A stretch of 64,000 nt of DNA from the NCBI RefSeq assembly GCF_030687295.1, contig NZ_CP117425.1, forward strand, positions 992,001 through 1,056,000, written 5' to 3'. Below the pieces are notes generated by a model. That model saw only the letters and a list, made by a program, of their open reading frames with translations. It ran no database searches and had not been told where the DNA came from. Each line of letters begins with the position of its first letter. Position 1 is the first letter of the stretch. Made by a program: the position numbers and the translations under genes. Of the stretch, positions 4,684-11,628 are shown in pieces. The DNA is from Pseudomonas beijingensis. Its GTDB lineage: Bacteria > Pseudomonadota > Gammaproteobacteria > Pseudomonadales > Pseudomonadaceae.

Positions 4684-4874
4684 ATGTGACGGATTGCTTC
4701 AAAAAAATGTCATACGAGCTGTCTAAAATCCGTTATAAAGCTGCAATCAATTTATAGACGGCGGGCCGCTGGGTTTGAGGAGTGAAGCTTTCGGTTGAAA
4801 AACCGAAAAGTTCTTCTATACACTTACCCACCGGCCAGCTGCCTGAATTTGTCCATTAGGAGTGAAAACAAGGT
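4684..4874 (+). promoter_or_regulatory. acpP leader containing the RgsA-complementary ribosome-binding site
   Basis: The 190 bases between fabG and acpP hold an A-rich stretch (4700-4735) that may carry a separate acpP promoter, and a strong AGGAG at 4858-4862. Bases 4853-4863 (CCATTAGGAGT) are followed by GAAAACAAGG. The same 11-mer followed by AAAACAAAGG occurs at 11294-11314, on the strand opposite the predicted RgsA RNA. The RNA is therefore complementary to the acpP Shine-Dalgarno region. Confidence 0.6.
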
Positions 4875-5112
4875 ATGAGCACCATCGAAGAGCGCGTCAA
4901 GAAAATCGTTGCCGAGCAACTGGGCGTTAAAGAAGAAGAAGTTGTGAACACCGCTTCCTTCGTAGAAGACCTGGGTGCCGACTCCCTTGACACCGGTTGA
5001 GCTGGTGATGGCTCTGGAAGAGGAATTCGAGACCGAGATTCCTGACGAAGAAGCTGAGAAGATCACTACTGTACAAGCTGCTATCGACTACGTTACCAGC
5101 CACCAGGCGTAA
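4875..5112 (+). CDS. acpP: Acyl carrier protein AcpP (single frameshift, probable sequencing error)
   Basis: AcpP carries growing acyl chains on a phosphopantetheine arm. The N-terminus [18 protein letters not shown] and the GADSLDTVEL site, whose serine takes the prosthetic group, are clear. The frame is interrupted by one extra G at 4995-4996 (CACCGGTTGAG where CACCGTTGAG is expected), right after the modification site. Removing it restores 78 residues ending in YVTSHQA, the standard length. Because acpP is essential and highly expressed, this is read as an assembly error. It has its own strong AGGAG and is a predicted target of the RgsA-like sRNA at 11254-11381. A terminator follows at 5143. 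Confidence 0.93.
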
Positions 5113-10449: not shown

Positions 10450-11244
10450 ATGCTTGTAGATTCCCATTGTCACCTTGACCGTCTCGACCTCGCTGCCCAT
10501 GGCGGTTCCCTGGATGCTGCGCTGGACGCGGCCCGTGAGAGGGGTGTAGGGCACTTCTTGTGCATCGGCGTCAGCGCCGACAACGCCGCCGACGTCAAGG
10601 CCTTGGCCGAACGTTATGCCGATGTCGATTGTTCGGTCGGCGTCCACCCGCTGGACGTCCAGCCCGACGCCGCGCCGGCGCTCGATTGGCTGTTGCGTGA
10701 GCTCGATCATCCACGGGTGGTCGCCATTGGCGAAACCGGCCTGGACTATCACTACGAGCCGGAAGCTGCCGACGTGCAGCAAGCCTCGTTCCGGCTGCAC
10801 TTGGAGGCCGCCCGGCAGACCGGCAAGCCGGTGATCATCCACACCCGCGGCGCCCGTGCCGACACCTTGGCCTTGCTGCGTGATGCCGCGTTGCCCCAGG
10901 CCGGTGTGCTGCATTGCTTCACCGAAGACTGGAACATGGCCAAGGCCGCCCTGGACATGGGCTATTACATTTCCTTGTCCGGGATTGTCACGTTCCGCAA
11001 TGCCGATGCCCTGCGGGACGTTGCCAGCAAAGTACCGGCTGATCGGTTGCTGGTGGAGACCGACTCGCCTTACCTGGCGCCGATCCCGTATCGCGGCAAG
11101 CCGAACCTTCCGCAATACGTACGGGAAGTGGCAGAATTTCTGGCGATGTTGCGCGGTGAGTCCTACGAGCGGTTTGCCGAGCAGACGACGGAAAACTTTA
11201 AGCAATTGTTTCCGCTGGCTCACGTCCGTCCGGTGAATGCCTGA
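10450..11244 (+). CDS. tatD: TatD family metal-dependent hydrolase
   Basis: 264 residues of the amidohydrolase/TIM-barrel type. Metal ligands are visible in DSHCHLDRL at the N-terminus, the glutamate in GETGLDYHY, histidine in VIIHTRGA, histidine in LHCFTED and aspartate in ETDSPYL. TatD/YcfH enzymes are 3'-5' exonucleases or deoxynucleases. The gene ends the conserved fab-tmk-holB-pilZ cluster. Its end lies about ten bases from the terminator of the convergent RgsA-like sRNA. Confidence 0.92.
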   Translation: MLVDSHCHLDRLDLAAHGGSLDAALDAARERGVGHFLCIGVSADNAADVKALAERYADVDCSVGVHPLDVQPDAAPALDWLLRELDHPRVVAIGETGLDYHYEPEAADVQQASFRLHLEAARQTGKPVIIHTRGARADTLALLRDAALPQAGVLHCFTEDWNMAKAALDMGYYISLSGIVTFRNADALRDVASKVPADRLLVETDSPYLAPIPYRGKPNLPQYVREVAEFLAMLRGESYERFAEQTTENFKQLFPLAHVRPVNA

Positions 11245-11253
11245 ATTTCATGC

Positions 11254-11381
11254 AAAAAAAACCCGGGTTCTGGGGGGTGAATCCGGGTTAAGACCATTAG
11301 GAGTAAAACAAAGGCACGCGGTCCGTTGGTACCTTTATCAGCGCGTCACTTGGGGGAGATGTCGCGCCGACAGTTCAAGTA
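11254..11381 (-). ncRNA. rgsA: Candidate RpoS-dependent sRNA RgsA (P16)
   Basis: There is no credible protein gene in the 380 bases between tatD and the TetR gene. On the minus strand, CATACT (11393-11388) is a plausible -10 box, giving a start near 11381. The RNA would end in a seven-base stem (AACCCGG, 11289-11283, with CCGGGTT, 11266-11260) and a run of U (11259-11254), about 125 nt in all. P. aeruginosa RgsA lies in the same place, beside the tatD homologue PA2959. The internal single-stranded CUCCUAAUGG can pair with the acpP ribosome-binding site at 4853-4863. Ends are approximate; identity rests on synteny, size, terminator and target match. Confidence 0.75.
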
Positions 11382-11628
11382 TTGATCAGTATGCCAACCC
11401 GTCCAGTCTGGCCGGGGTGGTTTTTAAACAAATTTGGAATACGCTCGCTTCGGATAAGTTCTCACTGTCGCCAAAGCTCGCCAGCGCGGCGCATTGGCGC
11501 GGGAAAAGGCGAGCCGGGTGTGTACGGTTTTGTGAAGAACAGTGGCCGAGAACGGATGATCCGTGCATTTTTGCGTAAGTTAGGCATAATACCCGGCTTC
11601 GAATTTTGACCCTTCAGACCTTTTTCTT
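11382..11628. other. Intergenic region between rgsA promoter and TetR gene
   Basis: About 250 bases with no credible gene. It holds the upstream promoter area of the minus-strand RNA and, near 11577-11600, AT-rich sequence (TTAGGCATAATACC) that could provide the promoter of the TetR gene. Open frames here are short, lack ribosome-binding sites and have no family signature. Confidence 0.5.

Follow-up and report, generated by a model that had tools for sequence, protein, structure and literature searches.

Two questions are raised by the locus beside the tatD homologue of Pseudomonas beijingensis: is the short RNA encoded there on the minus strand a regulator of acyl carrier protein synthesis, and is acpP the reason why its pairing segment has been kept? 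The locus lies in a 64,000-nucleotide stretch of contig NZ_CP117425.1 (positions 992,001 to 1,056,000), hereafter the window. A sequence-only reading of this stretch had proposed that an RgsA-like RNA at 11254-11381 is complementary to the acpP ribosome-binding site some 6 kb away, and that, like P. aeruginosa RgsA, reported to repress acpP and fis, it ties fatty-acid synthesis to stationary phase in this strain.

By its Rfam match, the minus-strand RNA at about 11371-11254 is the Pseudomonas RgsA (P16). The covariance search by which the sequence-only reading had suggested checking this identity agrees with it: RgsA (RF00628) matches the minus strand from 11456 to 11263 over model positions 1-194, at 188.2 bits (E 1.1e-45) against a gathering cut-off of 88.4 bits. 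The match is longer than the span first proposed because the promoter is included in the model, which covers about 87 nt upstream of the transcript start (Park 2013). Alignment to the published 5' end of CHA0 RgsA, GTCGGCG (Gonzalez 2008), places the start at 11371, while the 87-nt offset of the Rfam model (Park 2013) gives 11369 as an alternative; the RNA ends at a U tract near 11254, and the proposed span was correct to within about ten bases. The locus comprises the following features.

Positions 11421 to 11442, minus strand: conserved upstream element GTATTCCAAATTTGTTTAAAAA, 22 bp, at about -50 to -71, corresponding to the URS described by Gonzalez 2008
Positions 11401 to 11406, minus strand: -35 region CTGGAC, from the sequence and its conserved pattern
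Positions 11378 to 11383, minus strand: -10 element AATACT, RpoS-type judging by where it stands with respect to the published start and promoter
Positions 11254 to 11371, minus strand: rgsA transcript, about 118 nt, from the Rfam match and the start aligned to published homologues
Positions 11337 to 11371, minus strand: 5' hairpin with a C-rich loop, from the minimum-energy fold
Positions 11310 to 11336, minus strand: second hairpin with a single ACGGA (RsmA-type) motif, from the minimum-energy fold
Positions 11294 to 11308, minus strand: acpP-pairing segment UUUUACUCCUAAUGG, nt 64-78, mean unpaired probability 0.77
Positions 11254 to 11289, minus strand: Rho-independent terminator and U tract, from the fold and the U run in the sequence
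Positions 10450 to 11244, plus strand: tatD homologue, convergent to rgsA, from the open reading frame list and Pfam TatD_DNase (PF01026, 276.8 bits)

The RNA folds at -38.4 kcal/mol, an energy equalled by none of 200 dinucleotide shuffles (z -3.4), and its minimum-energy structure consists of two hairpins, then the exposed segment, then the terminator. A simple promoter and terminator scan of the minus strand between 11100 and 11650 reported nothing; the terminator hairpin is nonetheless present in the fold and is followed by a U run, as had been noted from the letters, and the -10-like box described earlier is AATACT at 11383-11378. The promoter does not resemble sigma-70. Both the URS and the RpoS-type elements can be seen in the sequence, and the family rows conserve them. 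P. aeruginosa, P. syringae DC3000 and P. fluorescens CHA0 are the species in which RpoS dependence has been published, and by analogy it would be expected here as well; stationary-phase expression together with RpoS and GacA dependence is published for relatives (Gonzalez 2008; Park 2013). TGG[AC] followed 17-24 nt on by ATA[AC] occurs in 41/41 genus and family rows, these being the window plus 40 high-scoring matches of which one (L032) is the window's own genome, and in 39/40 order-level rows. The URS itself has six variants among the 41 high-scoring rows versus 33 among the 40 order-level rows.

Downstream, the neighbour recognized as tatD in the sequence-only reading is indeed a TatD-family gene (10450-11244, plus strand), facing rgsA, which reads from 11371 on the minus strand; this convergent arrangement is published for Pseudomonas (Gonzalez 2008). 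A TetR-family gene lies upstream of rgsA, and by their Pfam matches acpP, a gene for a ketoacyl synthase (fabF) and one for a PilZ protein belong to the same cluster. Further cluster genes are presumably fabG, mltG, tmk, holB and pabC.

On the acpP side, three features were delimited.

Positions 4853 to 4867, plus strand: acpP mRNA site CCAUUAGGAGUGAAA over the Shine-Dalgarno sequence, 15 bp with RgsA, duplex energy -28.8 kcal/mol
Positions 4870 to 4874, plus strand: AAGGU beside the start codon, forming a second 5-bp helix with GCCUU of RgsA in the duplex structure
Positions 4875 to 5112, plus strand: acpP coding region, its frame broken after codon 41, both pieces above the Pfam PP-binding (PF00550) cut-off

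On the minus strand, CTCCTAATGG at 11303-11294 has its complement, CCATTAGGAG, at 4853-4862, and the 11 identical bases claimed for the Shine-Dalgarno region (4853-4863) were found. In the RNAduplex structure, UUUUACUCCUAAUGG (11308-11294) pairs with CCAUUAGGAGUGAAA (4853-4867) through 15 unbroken pairs, one of them U.G, at -28.8 kcal/mol including the second helix. Thus, the 11-base match first described stands, while the single bulge said to follow it, a bulged G, is one of two possible layouts; RNAduplex draws no bulge and uses the U.G pair instead. When the flanks were shuffled around an unchanged ACUCCU, none of 300 seeds matched this energy (z -3.6), and acpP ranks first against 65 other start regions in the window (those of open reading frames that a simple script called at 120 aa or longer), the next reaching -21.7 kcal/mol. 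It is also the best non-self site among 10,660 windows of 50 nt on both strands, where the next reaches -25.4. Energy alone is not decisive, because one of 12 fully shuffled seeds, scanned in coarser steps, finds a site within the 64 kb that is at least as strong as -28.8; decisive are the location on the Shine-Dalgarno sequence and the published pairing. The genome has two copies of the 11-mer CCATTAGGAGT, one at acpP and the other opposite rgsA itself. Within the predicted leader fold the acpP site is about half unpaired (probability 0.51), and the seed, mostly unpaired, is both accessible and complementary to a ribosome-binding site, as in an Hfq-dependent sRNA that blocks Shine-Dalgarno sequences.

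This interaction has a published counterpart. RgsA is reported in reviews to repress fis and acpP directly with Hfq in P. aeruginosa (PMC9308961; PMC8395346), acpP1 being repressed there by base pairing (PMC5686131), and published data show Hfq peaking strongly at the 3' end of P. aeruginosa RgsA. The conserved region nt 71-77 is described as needed for repression of both genes (PMC9308961); counted from 11371, these positions read CCUAAUG and form the centre of the acpP match. A second region, 141-175, is also named as needed (PMC9308961), and no counterpart of it was placed here. The RgsA of this strain resembles those of P. aeruginosa, CHA0 and DC3000 in sequence family, convergent tatD, RpoS-type promoter, upstream element, single GGA, terminator and the pairing segment at nt 71-77, and acpP, a reported target in P. 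aeruginosa, is probably a target here too. It differs in the 15 unbroken pairs of its acpP duplex. The match is therefore the orthologue of a published interaction, and its main point was already known; the earlier interpretation of RgsA and acpP as partners draws support from the Rfam identity, the tatD neighbour and a segment containing the published nt 71-77, from which an effect in this strain would be expected. Among the titles and abstract openings searched, none described control of acpP by RgsA outside P. aeruginosa.

The ACGGA motif of the second hairpin raises the alternative that RgsA mainly titrates RsmA through its GGA hairpin, which would make the acpP match irrelevant. However, CHA0 RgsA, with a single GGA motif, is reported not to relieve hcnA repression (Gonzalez 2008), and the alignments show the pairing segment to be more conserved than the hairpin, with the proviso that one of them, A2, was selected by the seed motif and its seed is invariant by construction. 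We consider titration as the main role highly improbable.

That RgsA represses acpP by Shine-Dalgarno pairing in stationary phase or stress is, in our view, very probable, with its expression, Hfq binding and repressive effect in this strain expected by analogy with the relatives. According to the proposed mechanism, RpoS would turn on rgsA in stationary phase or under stress, as published in relatives, and the exposed ACUCCUAAUGG would pair, presumably with Hfq, across the acpP Shine-Dalgarno sequence up to the start codon. Such pairing would block ribosome entry and lower the synthesis of acyl carrier protein; fatty-acid synthesis would thereby fall as growth stops.

The acpP reading frame in this assembly carries a stop after 41 codons, with its continuation in another frame. 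Since AcpP1 alone serves fatty-acid synthesis in P. aeruginosa (PMC5686131), the break is probably an assembly or sequencing error.

The second target named at the outset fared differently. Repression of fis is published alongside that of acpP in the P. aeruginosa reviews, but pairing of the seed with fis is unremarkable here, at -18.7 with five of the 65 window starts as good or better, and none of 30 genomes showed a CATTAGGAG-type site in its fis leader. As a conserved partner of the seed, fis was accordingly rejected.

How widely the RNA itself occurs bears on what the segment is kept for. RgsA was found in 198/199 genomes sampled from the genus, in 93/119 of the family and, at E<=0.001, in 77/293 of the order, 15 of these over the Rfam cut-off; none of 14 control genomes gave a match. 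Sixty-four of the 77 order matches come from 17 families other than that of the window, and three of these matches exceed the cut-off. From the best 41 of these 64, 40 loci in 11 families were fetched (G317 was left out), and families f4, f17, f21, f32, f39 and f42 are represented by E-values of 3e-7 to 1e-3 only. Although 37 of the 40 fetched loci fall below the Rfam cut-off, a transcript-only model built from family sequences (R1) hits all 40 at the same place (E <=2.4e-4), which suggests that the cut-off misses most RgsA members outside the family. Gene position is independent support for these loci: in 28 of the 40, a tatD/pilZ homologue (19), a TetR-family gene related to the one neighbouring rgsA here (20), or both are found no more than about 9 kb away, while 12 have neither within that distance.

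Among named genomes, an 18-base piece of the segment retrieved at least 117 stretches, those listed including Endozoicomonas, Microbulbifer, Zooshikella, Aestuariicella, Halieaceae, Spongiibacteraceae and Cellvibrionaceae. Model R1 scores 79 of the 80 named loci listed, a result that is partly circular because these loci were chosen by 18 segment bases; the exception, a Brumimicrobium locus (L217), is probably a chance match. Among the papers searched, none mentions RgsA together with Microbulbifer or together with Endozoicomonas. The RNAs of other Pseudomonadales share promoter spacing, the C-rich loop, the ACUCCU-A/U-UGGUC segment and the terminator with RgsA of the window, and differ from it in lying mostly below the Rfam cut-off and in seldom pairing with acpP above control. 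In G401 and G420, two genomes of family f8, the contig with the RgsA-like match has a further, weak one some 41 kb away.

The pairing segment is nearly fixed across this range, with many of the compared rows being close relatives and not independent. Its core, ACTCCTAATGGTC, is present in 41/41 high-scoring genus and family rows, and in 35/40 further family loci, of which 36/40 keep a relaxed seed pattern and 4/40 are without it. In all 40 fetched order-level loci, ACUCCU is followed by two to five A/U and then by UGGUC: 25 have exactly ACTCCTAATGGTC, ten, all of family f28, have ACTCCTATTGGTC, and five show another change or extra A's.

Two sets of variants deserve mention in their own right. 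The same-family copies of RgsA that lack the pairing pattern (L179 and L180 of genus g132, L164 of g120 and L170 of g123) are natural seed variants that could reveal the purpose of the segment. The f28 loci with ACTCCTATTGGTC (L062, L064-L067, L069, L070, L074, L077 and L079) have a changed 5' flank, with which several of the opposite strands read as a Shine-Dalgarno sequence followed by ATG.

Pairing with acpP follows a narrower distribution. Scored against seeds that retain ACUCCU between shuffled flanks, it exceeds control in 13/14 genus genomes as well as in the window, and in 4/19 genomes from the family's other genera; among the 40 family loci, 33 could be scored, the rest being without a readable acpP leader or seed pattern. 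Outside the family it exceeds control in 5/39 RgsA-bearing genomes versus 2/26 without RgsA, the latter scored with a consensus seed and classed as lacking RgsA by strict search filters (25 of 30 out-of-family loci were scored, rgsA not having been fetched for the other five, and 26 of 28 in another set). We therefore do not accept acpP as an order-wide partner under a general rule.

Within the family, no seed change following a change in the acpP leader was seen, the leader varying while 36/40 loci keep the seed pattern: among the 36/40 family loci with a readable leader, nine have CCATTAGGAG, 18 have CCATAGGAG, which is one T shorter, and nine have other forms. Genus g3, which we guess to be the P. 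aeruginosa group, differs from this strain in carrying the leader with one T fewer (CCATAGGAG) and an altered seed flank, and pairing exceeds control in 0/3 of its genomes. A miss in the pairing test thus does not exclude regulation, because this genus fails it despite the published repression.

Nor does the nearness of the two genes in the window account for the targeting. acpP lies within about 9 kb of rgsA in 15/40 order-level loci, yet just one of the 14 that were scored (L077 having been missed by the leader finder) pairs above control. Nearness was therefore rejected as a driver; it is an old arrangement.

The contrast between a segment kept in 40/40 loci of 11 other families and acpP pairing above control in 5/39 leaders can also be read against acpP altogether. 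The segment would then be a general anti-Shine-Dalgarno sequence, ACUCCU, kept for other mRNAs, and the acpP match a by-product of the acpP Shine-Dalgarno sequence being AGGAGU, with repression weak or incidental; that the seed does not track acpP changes within the family fits this account. However, pairing in the genus extends well past AGGAGU on both sides and beats flank-shuffled seeds in nearly all of its genomes, no other window start comes near acpP, and repression of acpP is reported in P. aeruginosa (PMC9308961; PMC8395346; PMC5686131). We judge a mere by-product to be improbable. Regulation of acpP by RgsA remains the preferred reading, and the long acpP duplex, from the sequences compared, looks younger than the RNA that carries it. 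The duplex is chiefly a feature of the window's genus, and something further holds the segment; acpP alone is an unlikely reason for keeping it, because both the RNA and the segment predate the long acpP match and vary less than it does. The wider distribution of RgsA, and the old, nearly fixed segment set against the narrower acpP match, are the new part of this work.

What else might hold the segment was sought among start regions carrying CAWTAGGAG. Across 23 genomes the pattern gave 122 matches versus 119 for its reverse, which is no excess. Among 70 such loci compared (30 returned and 40 picked), pal (oprL) was the only gene common to genomes, appearing in this strain, in G291 and in G442, which is of another family; with 70 loci, some shared gene is expectable by chance. 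The identity of Pal was confirmed by NCBIfam TIGR02802, over its cut-off in 4/4 tested. Pairing with pal in this strain, at -22.7, beats the 65 window starts and is weaker than that with acpP. An extra A in the seed of G370 meets an extra T in its pal leader (z -7.0), and G263 has a 15-nt pal match running through the start codon (z -4.4). Genomes with RgsA show lower pairing energies than genomes lacking it (p 0.0005 for energy and 0.06 for z in a one-sided rank test), the pal starts having been picked by eye among candidates with a lipobox.

These observations suggest a further account, by which pal, encoding the Tol-Pal lipoprotein, is the main conserved target, acpP a later Pseudomonas addition, and RgsA chiefly a tuner of envelope anchoring in stationary phase. 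The comparison across genomes is less favourable to it: p<=0.05 is reached in 14/45 genomes with RgsA (10/24, then 4/21) versus 4/27 without, with 24 of 26 loci scored in the first RgsA-bearing set (G364 was unreadable and G219 had no fetched rgsA), 21 of 29 in the second, and 27 of 28 in the set without RgsA (G234 was unreadable). Of five extra-A seeds, that of G370 is the one with a matching pal insertion, such an insertion being absent in G420, G336, G381 and G490, and 0/7 scored genomes of family f8 pair with pal above control. One paper mentions both RgsA and oprL, in passages where they are treated as unrelated. Given such mixed support, we regard pal as the main target as unlikely, and pal as a candidate further target, to be taken as a lead.

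A broader picture may be drawn from these comparisons, albeit tentatively, as it is possible and in our estimate still somewhat unlikely to be right in full: RgsA would be an ancient stress regulator of the Pseudomonadales with a near-fixed anti-Shine-Dalgarno segment and other original targets, pal being the best candidate, while the acpP duplex would have been gained within the Pseudomonadaceae. The core targets of RgsA thereby become a concrete question, with pal as the first candidate. If this picture is true, RgsA would couple the supply of membrane lipids, and the anchoring of the envelope as well, to stationary phase.
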